A stretch of DNA of 64,000 nucleotides from Polytrichum commune (Eukaryota > Streptophyta > Polytrichopsida > Polytrichales > Polytrichaceae): NCBI GenBank assembly GCA_950295325.1, contig OX485805.1:26587501-26651500 (forward strand). Reading direction: 5' to 3'. Made by a program: the position numbers and the translations under genes. This document shows, piece by piece, positions 53,326 through 64,000 of the stretch. Below the pieces are notes generated by a model that was not told where the DNA came from, did not search any database, and saw only the letters and a program-made list of their open reading frames with translations. The stretch's first letter is position 1. Every line of letters begins with the position of its first letter.

Positions 53326-54726
53326 TCAAGTGTTTCTCTTGTGTTCCCCACTGGAACTCAAGAGGTGCAATTAGTGTAAAATTTTATGATTATTTGTGTG
53401 CAACCAACAATTAAATGTAGTCTATTGTTTTTCATTCAATGTTTATGACAAGGGCTATACTTCTCAAGATGGGTTGTTTGATGTGAGCCACACTTGACTA
53501 GAAATATGGCAAGGTCCAACGTAAACAGGGGGTGGACTCTTCATGGGAACCTTAAATGACGTGCGTGGGTCGTTGTTGAATTAAACTCCCTATATACAAG
53601 GAATTTATAGGGGAAAACATATGTAAACATACTAACAACATGTTAAATAAGAACTCACATATTTACATAAAGGTTTTCAATTTCATGTGATAAATGCCTC
53701 CATTACATGTACAAACTATACATCATGACTTAAATGAACCTTTATTATATACAAAATCCACTTTCACTTTTCTGAAGAGAAAGTCGTTGAATGTTTTTCA
53801 TTCATAGCATGTAACTCAGTGATTGTAAGAAACAAACAAAGATAAGAGCACACACAATAAGGGTGAGTGTCCAAGTAGGTTGCTCGCCCACCCGATTCTA
53901 GTGTGAATAAGTACAAACACACCCATATGCAAATGGAACATGGTGGGGTAGGGTTCATATGTACCAACTTGCTACTCGCATCTTCTCAAATCTGGCCCGC
54001 CTACTAACCTCCTTCTCATGGTTATCAAGGATTGAGTTCTAGTCCATCATCGGTTCTCTTGAGTCTTCAATTGGTCTTAATCCATTGGCGACCGATACTT
54101 GTAGGTAAAAATATTCTTTAGTGAGCGCATGGAAGTCTAGCGGCATGTGTCCATAGCCCACCACATTTTAGCAGAGTGCTCGAATGTGGTTGGATTGCGG
54201 TTTGTGCTTAACTACATGCGAACACCTCCGACCAACTCTTATCTAGAATCTAGTGAGCGACGGCCTACATGGAAACTCACCCTAACTTAGCCACAATCTA
54301 GAGAGCATAACTAAAGGAAACCCATGAGAGCTCCAAGAGCCTTTGGTTTGTAAAAATCTAGAACCCAAATCTAATTTAACAAGAAGATGCATGGTAGTCA
54401 TTGAGGACTATGACCATCTGAAAATAATGGATGAAAATGTGAAGTGGATGAAACTTACATGTCTATATTTAATATTGTCTCTCAACTTTAGGGCCTCCTT
54501 TTGGATATCTACGTTTGCTTCATTAAATATAACAACCTTTTTAGATGTTCGCATTTTTGGCACATAGAACAAGTAACAGCCAACTAACTCAAACAAATCT
54601 CCCTCTAAACAATAGTTTTTGCCAATACAAACTAATCAAAACCCTAACATGGAGCTATAACGTTAGCAATTCCAAGTGCGAAGAGGAAGGCATACAAATC
54701 ATGCAATCTATGGATTCAAGGGAATA
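53326..54726 (+). repeat. R-family repeat, copy 8, cut at 54726
   Basis: Follows 13020-14890 (TCCCCACTGGAACTCAAGAGG onward). It breaks off after GGATTCAAGGGAAT, where other copies continue AAGCATGAATCGCC. The sequence then switches to the large mobile element. Confidence 0.85.
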
Positions 54727-57700
54727 TGTGTGGGGAGTGCTATCTTATGAGCGGTAACTTATGAGCAGTGAGGAAGATGAAAATTTTGGTAATAGGGCCA
54801 CCAATATCCTATAACCGTGGAATTGTGACCTTAAAAATGATGATTTTAGGGTTTAGTAATAAGAGGGTTGAGAAGGATAAACAACATGAAGTCCAAAAAT
54901 TTATTCATAAGTAGTAGCACTAGACATGAAACTATCTTTTGCCTCGTCATCTATATATATTCGAGCACCTTTGCATTGCGAATTGATTTTGGAACTATAG
55001 CAAGATTCTTCATTTGGATCCGAATCTTCAAGATTCAACATTGCAATTGCAACATTCTCGGCATATGATGGGAGGCGCGGGCTACGACTTGGACTTCGTA
55101 GGAATTGTCTATGTGCCCAAAACGGGAGACATGTCCTCTTTCCAATCGTATTCCTGAAATCAAATCGATGAAACATGTAAATAATGTGAAGAAATAAAAA
55201 TGAACCAATGAATTGAATGAAACGAATGAATTGAATAAAAAAAATTTGTATCAAAACTTACTCACACTCAAATTCAAGCATCTCCTCATCCGAGAGGTCA
55301 TCATCTTCTTTTGTGAGATCTTGTATATTCTCCTTAGATGACCCCTCTTTCAAACCTTTTCCAAAAGCGGTTTCAATATGTGCTCAAACATGTCATTATC
55401 ACCCTCAAATGCAAGAAGATGTCTGCCACATGCGCGTGTTGCTAGGATAGAAGCTCCAGTGGAACATGTCAAATCAACAACGCGTCCATTCGATGGTGTA
55501 AACAATTCAATAAGATCTTAAAAAAAACGCGGCGATTTTTGATATGGCCCCCTCCAAGGTCTTCCCGATTTTTGAAGAAGCGTGTTTTTTTCATCCACAA
55601 AATTGAAAAGCAAGTTTTTGCTTTTCAATCCAGTGCCGAAAAAAGTGGAGTTTGGTTGTCTCGTGGATTTTTTGGTAGTAAAATCCCTTACCAAGACATG
55701 AGCCATAAATGCCGGAGTCTACAAAAAAAATGTAAATTGTGTTAAAACTATATACAATGCAAATAACACCAAAATAATTAAATAGAAACAATTGTGATGT
55801 GTTATACTTACGGTGTAGGTTGGAGACTCCGGATCCTTGAACACCATGTACGAATTGAGGCAAATAAAAGTCCTAAGAACTTTCATGTTGCCGTTGTGTA
55901 AGGTTGAATTCAAAACCTTCTTGGTTTGCATATCGATAGCAAAAAATACTATGAGGACGCCATTATCAGACAAGATGGACTTGCACAAGGACATTGTTGC
56001 AACCATCCAGTTCTTGTCATATTTATTCCAAAGAGGAATTTCAGCAGGTCTATTGGAGAGGTTGAAGTCAAAACCGTCTGGAAATTGCAGAAAAACCAAG
56101 TCAACGGCAAATGGAGTCGGACTTCCCATGACATGAAATTCGCGATTGTCTTTGAACTGAAATACCACAACATATCACAATATAAGACACAAAATAAAAT
56201 CCAAATGAAAGTAAGAACATTACAGAAAATACAAAATGAAGATTACTTACATTTTCAAGAAATGTCCGCCATTGGATCCACTCAGGAGGGCCTACTTCAA
56301 CCCCTTCAGACTTGTTCTTGACAGCAGTAGATCGAGCAAAAGAGAGCGTAAGAAAGTTCTTCAGTATGAATAACTTTTTTTTCAAAACATTCGTTGGCGC
56401 ACGATGAATAGCGTCATAGGTGCTAGAGGAATGAAATTCCAATACATCGCACCCGGATTTTGAACTTTCGCCTCCAAGTGTATTCTTATCCAAATCATTG
56501 GAAAGAACAAGCAATTCTTCATGTTGTGAAATTTCCGATTGACCTTGTATTTTGGTTTCAGGAACATGTTTTCTCTTACGACGTTTTGTCTCTTTTGGTT
56601 CTGGCTCTCTAAGTTTAAGCTGCACAATTTGTGCTTGCAAAATTGCAGTATCACGAGGATCTACATTTTTGGCATCATTTATCTGACGGATTGTCTTCTC
56701 ACTTGACGGACATGCATCCTTAGGACAATCAAGATACCAATCACAATCCTCATAGTGGGAGCGACCAATCCAAACAAATCTCAGTAGTGAACATGCATGA
56801 GTCTTCCGCACCAGTGTCACGCCAATTTGGAAAAAAACGAGGTACTCCTATAACGCATTTGTGCGGAATCAAAACATATCAGAAATACCTACACACAAAA
56901 ATATTATGAGCCAAATATTGAATGAAAAGTAAAATGTAATGAAAAAATATCAAGAAATAGTAAAGAATAAATTGTACCTGTATAGAACACGCTTCATAGC
57001 AAGATCAATATTCGGTTGCTCATCCCAAACGTTGTGTTTTTTTACTTTTCTGCTTTTGAATTCACGATAGAATATTAAATTGAAAGCCGCAAACTTCCAG
57101 GTTTGGATATATTCGGAGAGAGTAGGCATATCTGCAGGCAATTGAAGAGGAGATGAAAGAATACTTTGAAGCTCTTCAATAGTTTTTTTCTCTAACTGTG
57201 CCCAATATGTAGCCTTTGATAACCAATCATCAAGTGCAGAATCAGAGAGGGGTGATTTCGGGAAATGCAATGCATCTTTGTCAAATCTATTGCCATTCCA
57301 AAGCTTGAGCCATCCGACTTTGACATCTGGATCCACATTACTAACAGCAACACGATGAAGTTTCTCTTGTAACATTTCAGGCACCGAAAATGAACCCCAA
57401 TGGTGCTTAACTTCTTCAAGAAAAGTAGGGGTGAGGTTGATGTCAGCAATTGCTAGTTGTTTTGTAAAACTAGAAGACAACATTGCACGTTTTTTGTTGA
57501 CAGCTGTGGACATTGCTTTAGAAACTCCTTCTGAAGTTCGTTCAAGAGGATGGGTTTCATTGTAAAGGTTGAGAGCAATATCGCTAGCCTCGGCAAGTTC
57601 TTGCTGAAAAATCAAACAAAATCCAAAATTAATAAGTACATATAGATGTGATCTAAATGAAAGATAAATAAACATTAAAAACATAGTAGGAAATGCTAGA

Positions 57701-58933
57701 AAAACTTACACTGTACATATAATCAAGAAAAATTGGCCGCGTCAAAGAATACCAAGTTTCAACGGACTTCTCCTCACATCGCTTATAACTTCTTGGATCC
57801 AGTTGTTTTTTAAAAGAAGTCAAAGGCATGGTACCAATACTTTGCATCCGATACAAAGTATGCACCAAATTGGTAGAAACGTGAGAGTTTTCTGTTGACC
57901 TGAAAAAATATTGAATTCATGGATTTAGGATGATATAATTCAAATAAAAAAATACAAACCAGAAATAAATGAAAATAAAGAAGTAAAAACATTACTTGTT
58001 GATGTCGTGCATAGCAGTCAACAAACTTGGAATGTCATCAAGCTCGGGCGCCAAAATGATGGAATCCACAAAGACATGACGCTCGTAATCTTTGGTATGC
58101 AAGCGGTCAATATAACTTTTCTAAGCAAAAAATCTGTGATTACCATCCCATATGAAGAACATCTTGTTCTTGTATGATGTAAATGAAGGATCGGCATTTA
58201 ATTCAGTTCCAAACACCGCATTAGCTTGAGCCCAATTTGGGCTCCAAGATGCACGAACCTCGTCATCCACAAATTGAAAATTTTCCTTAGAGTCGGTAGC
58301 CGATAGATAAAACACACGGTCACCATCACGATAACCATTGAAAAAGTCAGCCTCCAATTTAGTGATGTCGCCTCTCAAAGCAGGACGCACAATAGGCATT
58401 GGAACCATGCGACATAAAGGTACACGCAAACGAGATTTCGGTCCAGCACGGATTGAGGAAATTGTTGAAGTGGAATTAACCTTTCGCTTGTCCGTAAGCT
58501 CCCAGTCTTTCTGTTGATAGGTTTTATTGTCACCATCATTATCTTCATCCGAGTCAAAATCATCTAGAGATTCATTTTTCTTTTTCTTTTTCTTATTATG
58601 AAGATTTGACGATATATCCTGATGAACATGAACTTGTTGAGATGGACGATCTTGAGTTGAATGCATTGTAGAATCATCACCAGTAGAAATAACAGTCGTT
58701 CTCTCCAAATCCATTGATTGGTCCTAAAACAAATGAAATAAATTTCATAAATATTTCAAAACCAGTAGAAACACATTAGCAATAACATTACAAAAACAAC
58801 AGCAATAGCAACAACAATAACAACAGAATACCACGAACACATGGAAGAATAACAAAAATGATTCTAGACACTACCATTTGCACCTTTAAATATTGTACGA
58901 TAAGGGTGGCCGCTCACCCCAAAACTACAAGGG

Positions 58934-58998
58934 CAGACCCTGTGCGTTAACGCACAGGGTCTGTGTGTTAACGCACAGGGTCTGTGTGTTAACGCACA
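58934..58998. repeat. GTTAAC-centred palindromes, three copies at 21-bp spacing
   Basis: The first copy (58934-58963) is a 30-bp perfect palindrome with half-site CAGACCCTGTGCGTT. Two more GTTAAC centres follow 21 and 42 bp later within GTTAACGCACAGGGTCTGTG repeats. They lie in the 2.1-kb first intron of the minus-strand gene. Confidence 0.9.
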
Positions 58999-59032
58999 GG
59001 GTCTGTGTGTCCAACTACAGGTCTACAAAAGT

Positions 59033-59357
59033 TGGGCGCGAGGTTTGGGTTGAACGACCCAAACTGTCCACGCGGTTTCGATCGAGCGACCCAAACCGCC
59101 TACAGCCAGTTTGGGTCGAACGACCCAAACCATGCTCACAGTTTGGGTCGAACGACCCAAACCATGCTCACAGTTTGGGTCGAGCGACCCAAACTAGACG
59201 GACAGTTTGGGTCGAGCGACCCAAACTAGGCCGACAGTTTGGGTCGGTAGACCCAAACTAGGTCGACAGTTTGGGTCGAGCGACCCAAACTAGGCCGACA
59301 GTTTGGGTCGGTAGACCCAAACTAGGTCGACAGTTTGGGTCGACCGACCCAAACTGC
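59033..59357. repeat. Palindrome array, TTTGGGTCG-N-CGACCCAAA, 32-bp period, about ten copies
   Basis: From about 59033 the half-site TTTGGGTC and its complement GACCCAAA alternate with CGAACG, CGAGCG, CGGTAG or CGACCG centres. The spacer is variants of CTAGGCCGACAG or CATGCTCACAG. From 59108 the period is a steady 32 bp. The same palindrome occurs once more at about 63966-63985, inside the open frame of the transposase. ORFs here (such as 59005-59229) are translations of the array. Confidence 0.95.
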
Positions 59358-59572
59358 CCGCAATTTACGCCTAATTATGCGCAATTACCCAGTCATCACG
59401 AAAGTACAAACAAACCTTGTACTACACCTGTAGATGAGAGAGCTTGCAGCGACGAGCTCCGGTCCGATAGATGAGAGAAAAAAGACTGAATGCTTTGAAG
59501 GTGTGGCAATTTATACTACTCGTCCCTGCGGCCATATTTAGCGTGGCTCTTCGTGCCCCGCATAGCCGCTAG

Positions 59573-59628
59573 AAAGTTGCCAGCGCAGACCCTGTGCGTT
59601 AACGCACAGGGTCTGCGCTGGCAACTTT
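59573..59628. repeat. 56-bp perfect palindrome
   Basis: Half-site AAAGTTGCCAGCGCAGACCC followed by TGTGCGTT, centred on GTT|AAC at 59600/59601, with no mismatch. It contains the same 30-bp core as 58934-58963, extended on both sides. A degenerate relative (GGCCACTGTGCGTTAGCGCA) follows at about 59630. Confidence 0.95.
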
Positions 59629-60102
59629 GAGGCCACTGTGCGTTAGCGCATAAGGCTTGTGCGTTAATCGCACAGGGCCGAGACTTGAATTTGCTAAAAA
59701 CTTTTTTTTTTGAATTTGGAGATTGGTAGATTTGCCAAAACTTGTAAAATCTGGAAAAAATGCTAATGGGGTCCAAAAAAAAAAAAAAAATGCTATATTA
59801 TCTTAATTTCCGTAGCTACAAAATCTTCTTATATTTTGTTTTGGTTTGAAATCATTTTCTTTTCTCATTCTTCTATCTATTTCCTTGTTTTGGGTCACCT
59901 CGTAGATTTTGGGTTTCGGGGCAAAAAAAAAATTATGCTATTTTGTATCATTTTCTAGCTCCTATAACGTATTGCATGAATACTTGAATAGACATATTTC
60001 TCATTTCTTGCATTCTAACCCCGTTTTGAATGGTTTTTTTGTTCCTACGCTCTGAAGATCGATTTAAATTCATACAATAGATATTTGTTTACTTTTAGGC
60101 TC

Positions 60103-60680
60103 TCCTAGTCGTTTTACCTCCCAACTTTTGGCCTTCCTAAGTTGCTCTTACAAACCCTGTGCGTTAACGGACAGGGTTTCTCCTCCCAACTTTTTGCCTC
60201 CTAAGTTGCTCTTGCAAACCCTGTGCGTTAACGCACAGGGTTTCTCCTCCCAACTTTTTGCCTCCTAAGTTGCTCTTGCAAACCCTGTGCGTTAACGCAC
60301 AGGGTTTTTCCTCCCAACTTTTTGCCTCCTAAGTTGCTCTTGCAAACCGTGTGCGTTAACGCACAGGGTTTCTCCTCCCAACTTTTTGCCTCCTAAGTTG
60401 CTCTTGCAAACCCTGTGCGCTAACGCACAGGATTTCTCCTCCCAACTTTTTGCCTCCTAAGTTGCTCTTACAAACCCTGTGCGTTAACGCACAGGGTTTC
60501 TCCTCCCAACTTTTGGCCTTCCTAAGTTGCTATTACAAATCCTCTGCGTTAACGCACAAGGTTTTAGCTCCCAACTTTTGGCCTCCCTAAGTTGTTCTTA
60601 TAAACCTTGTGCGTTAACGTATAGGGTTTTACCTCCAAACTTCTCGCCTCCTAAGTTGCTCTTATAAACCCTGAACGTTC
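60103..60680. repeat. 64-bp tandem array, each unit with a GTTAAC palindrome
   Basis: Units read CTCCTCCCAACTTTTTGCC, CTAAGTTGCTCTTGC, then AAACCCTGTGCGTT/AACGCACAGGGTTT. The centres at 60165 and 60229 are 64 bp apart, and about eight units follow with rising divergence toward 60660 (ACGGACAGG, GCGCTAACGC, GTATAGG variants). The two best-preserved units are adjacent in the middle. The core is the same as in the other two GTTAAC sets. Confidence 0.95.
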
Positions 60681-61150
60681 TCCTCCTGACTTCTAGCCTT
60701 CCTAAATTTCTGTTATATACCATGTGCATTAACGTATAGGTTTTTTCCTCTCCAATTTATAACCTCTATAAATTGCTACTACATGATATGTGAGTGAACG
60801 TACAAGGTTCTCCGTCCTAACTTACAACTTATGCACTATCAAATTATGTGAACGTTGAACTGACTTACCTTTTTGTTTGTCGTCTTCTTTGAACCCGTCT
60901 TCAATTCGGACTCTGATATATGATCATCTATATCTTCTTTGTTTTTTGCACCTTCATCATCCTCCATCGCATCAAAATCCAGTGTCTTCATAGTTTCTTC
61001 TACCGTATTCAACAAGTTTCTTTTCCCTTCCTTATTTGCATTCTTCTTTCCCACACTCAGTCTGAACCTCTTTTTCTCGGAAGTGAAATACAAAGCTTTC
61101 CTACGTCTTCTCTTCGGCCTCACTGGTGTTCTCTCTACATCGTCCACCAT

Positions 61151-61672
61151 CGTTGGTGTCTATGATATGTTTTCTATCAGGTACTATCATTTATTCTTCC
61201 AATGTATCTATCTCACAAAATCCGGCGTATATTACGATCACATGTTGTAATTGGCGTTCAATGAGCGAGATATTTCGACGCGTTTGTCATTATGTGTTTA
61301 TTTTTGTTATATCCGCCAAAATTTTCTGACACCTACTTTGTTCTATTCATAATGAGCAATAATTTATTTTTCCAACCAATTTTAATTCTTTCTACATCTA
61401 CGTCAGTCCACACATATATATTTTTGTTTTCTACCAATACTTTTAGTATTTGACGCCATTTTGTGTATATCTTGCTCGTAAATATTCTCTGACTATTATT
61501 GTGTTATGTCCACTTCTGTATTATTAGATGCTATGTATCACACGCTTTCATCTCCATCCATTATTGTATCACACGTTTTTATTTCCATTCATTTCCTCAC
61601 ACAACTCTATACAAAACCAACATTCACCCCATATTTTTGTGATGTGTTGTTCATATGTTCTTTTGATTTTCT
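61151..61672. promoter_or_regulatory. Divergent promoter region between the two element genes
   Basis: 522 bp of AT-rich, T-rich DNA between the ATG of the minus-strand gene (61150) and the ATG of the transposase gene (61673). No coding signal is seen. Head-to-head placement implies a shared or bidirectional promoter; no individual box can be assigned with confidence. Unannotated upstream exons of the transposase gene could also lie here. Confidence 0.45.
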
Positions 61673-64000
61673 ATGGCTATCATAAGAGCTCATGGATCTT
61701 TTGTTCCCTTTATCTTGCCACTCCAAGATGATGGTCATATGAATGTTTCAGAGGATTTACTTAGTTTGAGATTCAACCTCCAGATAGGAACCATGTATTT
61801 AGAGCATGAGATGTACTCTGCAGATGGAGAGGTGTATGAAACGATTTTGGTTCCAAAAAATAGAACTGATGTTGGTTTTATGTGGATCTTAGGACCTGGT
61901 TCATTTAGGGTGATAGGACTTTCTGAGTCTCAGATGCAAGCTTCAACTGTCATTTTGACAAATGAATCCGGTACATCCACAGTTCAAATTCCCTCTATCG
62001 CACCTGTTAAGGTGGAACCCCTTGATGATAGTGTGTTTGTGCTATCAGATTCAGAAGATGACATTTGTCCATCTGTTGATCTTTCAAACACATCGCCATT
62101 TCCATTTAGAAGTGTTCATTCTACTCCTTCCCAACTTCCTATACATGTAGCCAAATCCCCTTGCGGTCTTATGTACAAGAAGGTGGTTCCCCAAATCTCA
62201 CCTTCTCAACGTCCTCCACTACACCCTTCACCTTCATCTACAGGGTTGACTATGGTTGATGCCTTGAAGCTGACAAAGTCAAGAAAAAGATCAAAGTCCG
62301 ATCTTGCATCCATTGATTTTGACAGTATAGATGTTCGTGAAGTCAAGTACTTACCATCTTCTTTTAATGGTGATGTTTTGTTTCTCTTGCCTCCTGTGGC
62401 ACTCAAAGCTCCAAGTACGTATGGTCGCTCAATGGACGGCATGGACAAGATGTGCGACGGTCATCCTTGGTGCACCACCAAAACCACGAATATCTAAAAT
62501 GACTTTGGACTGTCCTTTCGGCGCTCTACTTGTGCTGGTCATCTCCAATGTCATAATGACTACTGTGATTGCATGAATCGCAATGGGGGCCTCCGGAACA
62601 ACACTGAATGGGCCGGTTCAACTCCTATCCCATTTGCTGTGGGTGTTGTTCCCCCTACTAAGTCCACTGTCGAGTGTAAGGTATGTCGGTCCACACCTGT
62701 GTGCATTGCTTTGTGTAATGCTCGAATCATATACATCCACTCCACATCCGTTGGAATGTCCAGGGCTTGCATTCATCTTGGTGTACATGATCACCCTGTG
62801 GCCAATGGCACATGCCGTGAATCATTGGACATGGCATACCAATGCGTTGCAAATGAAGTATTGAAAACACCCACAGCAAAAAATTCAGCCATAGTTATGG
62901 CGGCGAGCAAACAATTCTTGGCCGATTACCTTCTCAAATCTCCCGCAAATGTCGAAGGCCATCACTTGGTTGGTTCATCCCTAGAGGTCGTCATGGACAA
63001 ATTCAGCACTCTTGCGTCTCCAAATTGTCGTAACTTTGTATCTGGATCAAAGCGTTTTTTGCGTAGTGGAATGGGAACTATGGATAGTATTATGGCGCTC
63101 AAAGACCACTCTGCTTTCAAATTCGTCCATGGTAGTCGGTTCCTAGGGCAGTCAAAGGACAAAGTGTTTGTTTTCAAGATGTCTGTAGACCTTCCAGGTA
63201 GTGGTGTGGAGCTTGTGAAGAGGATGCAAGTCGGTGGGGATATGGAGAATTCATGAATTATGTTTGACCATGTCAAACGTTTGAAGGACTGGATGACCAT
63301 GGCTTGCCATGTGTACGACAGTCGATATTGTAAAGTGTTGACTATTGCGTGTTGTGACATGCAATCTGAAGATGGTGCAGCACAAATTCTCTTATGGGAA
63401 AATTTGAATGCTGTCATGGCAGAAAATGGTGTACCATACGTAAACTTCAAAGGGTTTATGGCTGATAGTGCTCAAGCTAATTGGAATGCGGTGAGGGCGA
63501 TTTACGGGGATGGTGATCCAAGTCTACCCATGGTTGCACGTGAGCGTACATGTCTTTTCCATTGGTCCGCAAGCTTGGATAAGGTGACCCAAAAGTATAT
63601 CAAACCATCCTTGCAATTTCAACACAAACAAATATGCAAGGATTACAAAGACACGAAAACAATGGACGACGCTGAGACCAAGTACCATGTGATTCGTTCT
63701 TGGTGGTTGTCATCTGGAGCTGCCTCCGAGGAAGGCATCCTTGGCCTTTCAGAGTGGTTGGGATTTTGGCACTTTCGTTACAGACAATGGGGTGGCCATA
63801 TGCTACTTGTAAGTACATATCAAACTTCATTACTCAATGTAATATATCTTATGTTTTTCTTATCTTTGTCTTTCTGTATTGTTCATAGGATATGAACAAT
63901 AGAAGAGCGTATGGGAATGCCAACATGCAACCTTGCAGAGACTGTACACAACAAACAACAAATAGTTTGGGTCGTTCGACCCAAACCTTGTATGCAGTTT
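61673..64000 (+). pseudogene. MULE-like DDE transposase of the large element (3' end outside the window)
   Basis: One reading frame, broken by two in-frame stops (TAA 62495-62497, TGA 63254-63256), runs from ATG 61673 to a GTAAGT donor after 63808. A second exon starts at 63889 and is open to the window end. Regions in order: an N-terminal part without a known domain (SRKRSKSDL basic patch); a zinc-binding Cys/His segment CAGHLQCHNDYCDC followed by NNTEWAG, then CRSTPVC and HLGVHDHP (WRKY-GCM1-like); the catalytic region with KVLTIACCDMQSEDGAAQ (first D), GFMADSAQANWNAVRAIYGD (second D) and ERTCLFHW (CxxH), as in MULE-type enzymes; exon 2 has QQTTNSLG. The third catalytic E is not assigned. 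KDZ-type transposases also have CxxH and are the main alternative. Confidence 0.7.

Follow-up and report, generated by a model that had tools for sequence, protein, structure and literature searches.

The means by which a plant transposon escapes host silencing are, to our knowledge, known in detail for one protein family, VANC. In Arabidopsis, the short motifs bound by VANC are tandemly repeated in introns and upstream regions, and the protein lifts the silencing of its own family (accessible part of PMC5735166), and the motif arrays differ between related VANDAL elements, the transposase being more conserved (accessible parts of PMC5735166 and PMC10398659). Another precedent is bacterial: Shigella VirB, a member of the ParB superfamily, binds a parS-like palindrome, spreads from it and relieves silencing (accessible part of PMC10653881). 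Here we describe a DNA transposon of the moss Polytrichum commune, most of which is held by a stretch of 64,000 nucleotides (C3:26587501-26651500, hereafter the window) of a 408-Mb assembly of 64 contigs, the one genome from which all our genome counts come. The transposase of this element is accompanied by a divergent second gene; the pair recurs, the second gene is under purifying selection, and the elements carry arrays of palindromes that have a core in common and that differ from element to element despite a nearly identical transposase. The explanation that we consider best, and to which we lean slightly, is that the second gene may encode a ParB-type anti-silencing protein with a pseudo-methylase, loading on its own palindromes. 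We propose it because the anatomy of the element resembles that of the VANDAL Mutator-like elements (MULEs) and because VirB relieves silencing by loading and spreading.

The element is 11,757 bp long and runs from 54733 to 2,489 bases past the end of the window. A first-pass annotation, made from the letters of the window, had recognized an element with two divergent genes here, and both genes are indeed present on opposite strands in 54733-64000; the element itself was there too, but its left end is at 54733 rather than at 54727, and its right end lies beyond the window. It is flanked on both sides by an 11-bp target-site duplication, GAATATGTGTG, found at 54722..54732 on the left and again after the right end, past the window. 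The left end, on the plus strand, is a short terminal inverted repeat (GGGAGTGCTATCTTATGAG, 54733..54751), near which the homology between the window element and its copies stops, and the right end read inwards is GAGGGAAGCTATCTTATGAG; the terminal repeats are short and imperfect. Subterminal TGAGCRR repeats are found close to both ends in copy A. This copy (L001 and L002, contig C6) and copy B (L003 and L004, contig C3) belong to the window element's own family, fam-1; in the largest alignment pieces, pairwise identity among these two and the window sequence is 97-99%. All three copies carry an 11-bp target duplication, a length within the 8-11 bp range given for MULEs (accessible part of PMC6446971).

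Exon 1 of the transposase gene (~61673..63889, plus strand) is open over 742 aa in copy A; one further exon, inferred from the open frames of L014 and L024, encodes a SWIM-like finger and falls almost wholly beyond the window. We call the transposase MULE-like because of the 11-bp duplication and two motifs read by eye, a CxxH (CLFHW) that follows the second acidic residue and a CxCx(n)CxH finger of SWIM-like type. The MULE-like label given at first pass is therefore kept on these features, but Pfam returned neither a MULE nor a Transposase_mut match for the transposase, and its SWIM matches (E 0.016 and 0.012) were below the cut-off. The second gene is on the minus strand and has eight exons, called on genomic sequence by reading and by tblastn. 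Exon 1 (60869..61150) precedes a large intron; exon 2 (57995..58723) contains the ParB-like domain, with GNHR at 58144-58133; exon 3 (57710..57898) comes directly after this domain, and exons 4 (56977..57603) and 5 (56251..56890) follow. The methyltransferase-like part is encoded by exon 6 (55812..56156), the motif IV region, with QFPDG in the place of DPPY at ~56087-56073, and by exon 7 (55264..55718), with motifs X/I and VVDLTCSTGAS at 55481-55449. Exons 1 to 7 were located by tblastn, exon 7 with the exon of copy A (97%), and exon 8 (~54901..55153), an open frame in copy A, was read from the sequence. The window copy is decayed, with in-frame stops in exons 2 (one) and 7 of the second gene, frame breaks in exons 5 and 7, and two in-frame stops in transposase exon 1. 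Copy B has both genes open, exons 1-7 and the transposase stretches being free of stops and gaps; copy A is likewise free of both in exons 1-7 and has a single stop in the transposase.

That these features are a product of chance is contradicted by the PF01555 matches described below, by a ratio of nonsynonymous to synonymous divergence (dN/dS) of 0.41 in the second gene and by the recurrence of the pair in the genome. When the best 150 of 1,841 candidates from a transposase search were scored, at least 104 of the 150 had a divergent partner within 15 kb (a lower bound, counted among the partner matches listed), compared with a mean of 0.92 and a maximum of 4 at random places; the first-pass expectation that the two genes would co-occur across the genome was thus borne out. 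One of the 46 scored matches without a partner was examined (L011), and it has a distant version of the partner. From the side of the second gene, 140 of the 150 scored exon-6 matches were fam-1 (59-100% identity, two of them being pieces of one place); 116 of these 140 are preceded within 4 kb, on their own strand, by a ParB-like exon, and at least 89 have a divergent transposase match within 15 kb, counted with the 150 scored among the 1,841 transposase candidates. A distant-exon query gave 1,112 candidates, of which 150 were scored. A transposase relative stands beside eight of the 11 loci obtained from this search and the next, and none was seen beside the other three in the sequence examined; nor was one seen in the sequence examined around L008.

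The dN/dS of 0.41 comes from comparing copy A with copy B; comparison of each with the decayed window copy gives 0.46 and 0.54, and the transposase of A and B gives 0.39, near that of its partner. The ratio is uneven across the exons of the second gene, reaching 0.94 in exon 4. Three comparisons with related subfamilies in which dS was usable gave 0.20-0.22, a value of 0.84 for L007 and L013 comes from few changes, and the L017 pairs were saturated.

The C-terminal part of the second protein is, by profile, a permuted N4/N6-methyltransferase fold. The part encoded by exons 6-7 matches PF01555 in all four subfamilies (best E 3.9e-9), although a fam-1 member itself, at E 9.9e-5 and 22.8 bits, stays under the cut-off of 26.7; two one-exon relatives (L108 and L109, at C1:9662150 and C4:44111740) exceed it with 30.6 and 32.2 bits. 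The PDB entries of DpnA and CcrM were matched at E ~1e-6, CcrM over positions 13-230 of 238, and motif IV comes ahead of motif I, which is the permuted beta order. The beta-order methyltransferase-like C-terminus announced at first pass, with its VVDLTCSTGAS and GRHLLAFEGD, is thereby upheld. The degeneracy of its DPPY motif is equally clear: the catalytic [DNS]PP[YFW] is found in 0 of 13 aligned members and in neither one-exon relative, the place being taken by D-x-P-[E/D] in 11 of 13 and by P-[E/D]-[G/N] in all 13, and the first D is lost in fam-1 (QFPDG) and in L005 (EYPDG). The earlier guess of a role in binding rather than catalysis is supported by this loss, and since no aligned member has DPPY we prefer binding to DNA modification. 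It is conceivable, if quite improbable, that the protein is instead an active DNA methyltransferase marking element DNA with N4-methylcytosine or N6-methyladenine. The retention of the fold and of the motif for S-adenosylmethionine (SAM), the PF01555 matches in every subfamily and in the one-exon relatives, and the similarity to CcrM and DpnA would all suit such an enzyme, as would the DIPYG of one one-exon relative, the nearest to DPPY that we have seen; yet DIPDG stands in the other one-exon relative, which by eye is very similar, and the catalytic motif is lacking in every aligned member.

The arrays of palindromes were not mentioned in the first reading of the window. Intron 1 of the second gene contains an array of fam-1's own 20-bp palindrome, CCTGTGCGTTAACGCACAGG (58939..60495; eight sites with at most one mismatch, five of them exact), for which the expectation from shuffling is 0.00. 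Within it, at 59109..59354, lies an array of a second palindrome, GTTTGGGTCGNNCGACCCAAAC, which accounts for six of the seven exact sites in the window; the seventh stands alone near the transposase intron (63965..63986), a site that the first reading had also passed over. The whole genome holds 490 occurrences of CCTGTGCGTTAACGCACAGG and none of its reversed control, and all 50 of the listed sites fall between the transposase and methylase exons of fam-1, in spans of at most 50 kb (at most 15 kb for 44 of them). In other lineages this place is occupied by different palindromes, such as GGTGGCCGTTAACGGCCACC in L011, GGCATCTCGGATCCGAGATGCC in L013, GGGTTTCGGTACCGAAACCC in L024 and CAATCCCACGGATCCGTGGGATTG in L020; they are 16-24 bp long and their arrays reach 13 sites in L016 and 11 in L011. 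Of 17 element intervals, 14 had a recurrent palindrome (a cluster of at least four); none of 12 control intervals of the window did, their largest cluster being of two. The proviso here is that the 17 intervals were picked after palindromes had first been seen and differ from the controls in length. They include two fam-1 copies and two members of the L007/L013 lineage, and they omit L022, in which neither an array nor a ParB-like exon was seen, and L023, which has four perfect sites. A CG-N4-CG core is central in 15 of the 17 listed palindromes, and in 13 of 13 once the doubtful ones are left aside; for this count two palindromes were chosen by eye, that of L008, where the core is missing from the largest cluster (6) and the second-largest (4) was used, and that of L018, which occurs twice. 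In each of 10 arrays, conservation was higher in the palindromes than in the 12 bp flanking them, a comparison biased by the picking of sites by match.

The arrays also differ between elements that have almost the same transposase. The transposases of fam-1 and L011 are 89% identical over their first 376 aa, and their ParB-like exons are 43% identical and their palindromes different; L024, whose transposase is 80% identical to that of fam-1 in exon 1 and 94-96% in exon 2, has yet another palindrome. Inside the fam-1-like transposase clade, half-site identity averages 0.46 (ten pairs). We compared half-site identity with methylase-exon identity in the 66 pairs formed by 12 loci, using a permutation test. 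The four pairs with methylase-exon identity of at least 0.7 have a half-site identity of 0.88, against 0.54 for the other 62 (p 0.002); p is 0.001 at a threshold of 0.5 and 0.002 at 0.6, and leaving out L008, L014 and L018 gives p 0.004-0.011. Close relatives thus agree in their palindromes, and distant ones may agree too, so that the fit is partial. The palindromes are unlikely to be binding sites of the transposase, which has its own TGAGCRR repeats near the ends, common to relatives: these were found in L012, L014 and L107, and not in the examined sequence of L024, L013 and L015.

Several observations weigh against our explanation, and they concern both the protein and its presumed sites. 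To begin with the protein, the assignment of the exon 2-3 part to ParB is a motif-only one. The DGNHR core reported at first pass is present, GNHRxxAW is kept in nine of nine aligned members, and the order of motifs, judged by eye, presumably reflects that of ParB (an R..alpha..beta arrangement with G-x-x-R following a beta strand); but every ParB profile test came back without a match, whether in Pfam, NCBIfam, PDB or hmmsearch or by hhalign against a narrow phage ParB alignment. The PHROG 'ParB-like partition protein' was hit by two of nine members with a best E of 0.14, weaker than two unnamed PHROGs, and structure models made without an alignment were poor (mean pLDDT 35 and 39). With the ParB-like alignment no confirmed relatives were found in viral or bacterial/archaeal genome contigs, and with the methylase-like alignment none in viral contigs. 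The combination of a ParB-like motif order with arrayed palindromes would also be expected of a true ParB/parS-like maintenance system, in which the protein holds together or partitions excised or replicating element DNA. We regard this as very improbable indeed, the copies being integrated and flanked by target duplications.

As for the sites, the rank correlation of half-sites with the ParB exons over 10 loci was not significant (rho 0.14, p 0.18, Mantel test), and that with the methylase exon was of borderline significance with all 12 loci (0.32, p 0.06) and not significant with the nine that have clear palindromes (0.24, p 0.20). Five pairs with distant proteins (identity below 0.5) have a near-identical half-site, for instance L007/L021 and L016/L024; the half-sites of L006 and L024 are nearly alike as well, and L015, L017 and L023, which represent several lineages, share one palindrome. 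L015 and L021 carry arrays, that of L021 being the largest, and no ParB-like exon was found in either by tblastn or by the GNHR pattern between the methylase exon and the transposase. No clear dominant array is seen in L005, L014 and L018, and the second palindrome of fam-1 is common to another repeat, L025. A ParB-like exon may have been lost in L015 and L021 or may have diverged too far to be found.

These exceptions bring to the fore the reading that treats the palindromes as ordinary fast-evolving minisatellites with no relation to the protein, and the gene as one captured from the host or from bacteria. Tandem repeats, including non-palindromic ones, occur in five of five further loci examined, and both the sharing of half-sites by distant proteins and the two loci with arrays and no recognizable ParB-like exon are what this reading would lead one to expect. 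It leaves aside, however, the palindromic form and the CG-N4-CG core common to several lineages, the absence of arrays from the control intervals, and the differences between arrays of elements with the same type of transposase, and we find it improbable.

The repeat L025 (C1:616000-625999) deserves a word of its own. It is very abundant, with 150 scored matches at 91-100% identity (the best 150 of 954 candidates); 10 kb of it contain 35 GTTTGGGTCGNNCGACCCAAAC palindromes, and one open frame includes LIDGQHS. A further frame shows, by eye, a possible degenerate methylase end, TLTKRGDCIFNVFGGSKPIFAAM. Its proteins have no Pfam match. The GTTTGGGTCGNNCGACCCAAAC palindrome, centred on CG-N2-CG, occurs 9,231 times in the genome, and among the first 100 listed sites 23 are in fam-1 elements and 77 outside them. 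Possibly L025 is another ParB-like system, with a site that fam-1 has in common with it. In the region 58939-59354 fam-1 carries palindromes of two kinds, one its own and the other common to L025, the second possibly captured to borrow the L025 protein.

The dinucleotide composition of the element offers a further view of the arrays. The observed/expected ratio of CpG is 0.51 in the window, 0.53 in the transposase, 0.79 in the minus-strand gene part and 0.88 in the array, and that of TpG+CpA in the window is 1.23. Between copies, CpG outside the arrays changes 2.7-3.6 times faster than other positions (18 and 17 changes), and within palindromes the ratio is ~1.2 (43 changed CpGs in 360 dinucleotides versus 110 changes in 2,238 other positions), a slow change compatible with reduced methylation, or with selection, at the sites; this comparison must be read with its few changes, its palindromes chosen by similarity and its slightly different counting in and out of the arrays, which tell against leaning on it.

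We infer binding, spreading and anti-silencing from analogy and anatomy, and with unequal confidence. That the second protein binds the palindromes we think probable. Its ParB-like N-terminal part would recognize the 16-24 bp palindromes, in a parS-like manner, in the element's own non-coding DNA, and from there the bound protein would spread and keep the genes of the element free of host silencing. The C-terminal part would be a pseudo-enzyme that has kept a SAM-binding fold and lost DPPY, serving to recognize DNA or SAM or to dimerize. As protein and sites diversify, each lineage would come to free mainly its own copies. That anti-silencing is the main purpose of the protein is, in our estimation, an even call. 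A more elaborate version, in which a nucleotide-gated ParB clamp with a SAM-binding pseudo-methylase slides along the element and excludes or reverses silencing, and in which lineages swap protein-site modules, is rather doubtful. The protein could also act as a transcriptional self-regulator or a transposition cofactor that, bound to the palindromes of its own intron and to those near the transposase intron, leaves host silencing untouched. The position of the sites, in intron 1 and in or near the transposase intron, fits autoregulation, and between copies A and B the second gene and the transposase are under similar selection (0.41 and 0.39). Yet arrays of ten or more sites, such as those of L016 and L011, exceed the need of simple autoregulation, and the palindromes are not at the ends of the element, where the TGAGCRR repeats are; taking both sides together, we hold this role unlikely while keeping it in serious consideration beside the anti-silencing one.

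Some observations concern the assembly rather than the element. Strong PF01555 matches at C10:4592-5212, C10:15117-15353 and C12:29682-30278 (98.5, 55.4 and 68 bits) are possibly bacterial or organellar sequence within it. A plastid-type rbcL fragment is found in the chromosome at C3:14137891-14138196 (L010), and contig C8 carries rbcL with, by eye, accD and atpB beside it, plastid genes that mark the host as a green plant.

Were the anti-silencing explanation true, it would provide a second, unrelated anti-silencing system in another plant, with bacterial-type parts and palindromic targets, and this strategy would have arisen more than once. It would also supply many natural protein-site pairs from which to read how specificity changes, and possibly sequence-specific tools for plant epigenome editing; the escape of transposons from silencing would become testable by simple binding assays.

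The closest counterpart is the VANDAL21/Hiun element of Arabidopsis with its VANC protein. Both are MULEs, or MULE-like in our case, whose second protein evolves faster than the transposase, and the tandem-repeated non-coding motifs that differ between related VANDAL elements have their equivalent here, with the exceptions given above. The proteins differ: VANC has DUF1985/DUF287 instead of ParB-like and methylase-like parts, and no DUF1985 was among the Pfam matches of exons 1-7 of the second gene; the VANC motif YAGTATTAY is short and non-palindromic, in contrast to the 16-24 bp palindromes described here, mostly with CG-N4-CG. VirB is bacterial and counters H-NS, and the membership of the plant protein in its superfamily is only putative. 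We know of no methylase part in VirB. The order of the two parts is found in phages, where four of the eight frames that we read have an N-terminal ParB and a C-terminal beta-class methylase, in the order of the ParB-like and methylase-like parts of the plant protein, the methylase profile A1 matching phage frames with a best E of 9e-7; these four ParB-methylase proteins differ in having DPPY and a short linker, and their ParB part has no detectable similarity to that of the plant protein. Fungal DNA transposons carrying TET/JBP likewise bear a DNA-modification gene, of a different enzyme class and in different transposon groups (accessible part of PMC12730594). Among the papers listed by our literature searches, no title or abstract opening describes a ParB/methylase protein on a plant transposon, and the accessible part of one review (PMC13317346) does not contain the word 'ParB'. 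As far as this literature tells, the type of protein and its palindromic putative targets are new for plant transposons, and the strategy, carried out by an unrelated protein, would be a new variation on that of VANC.

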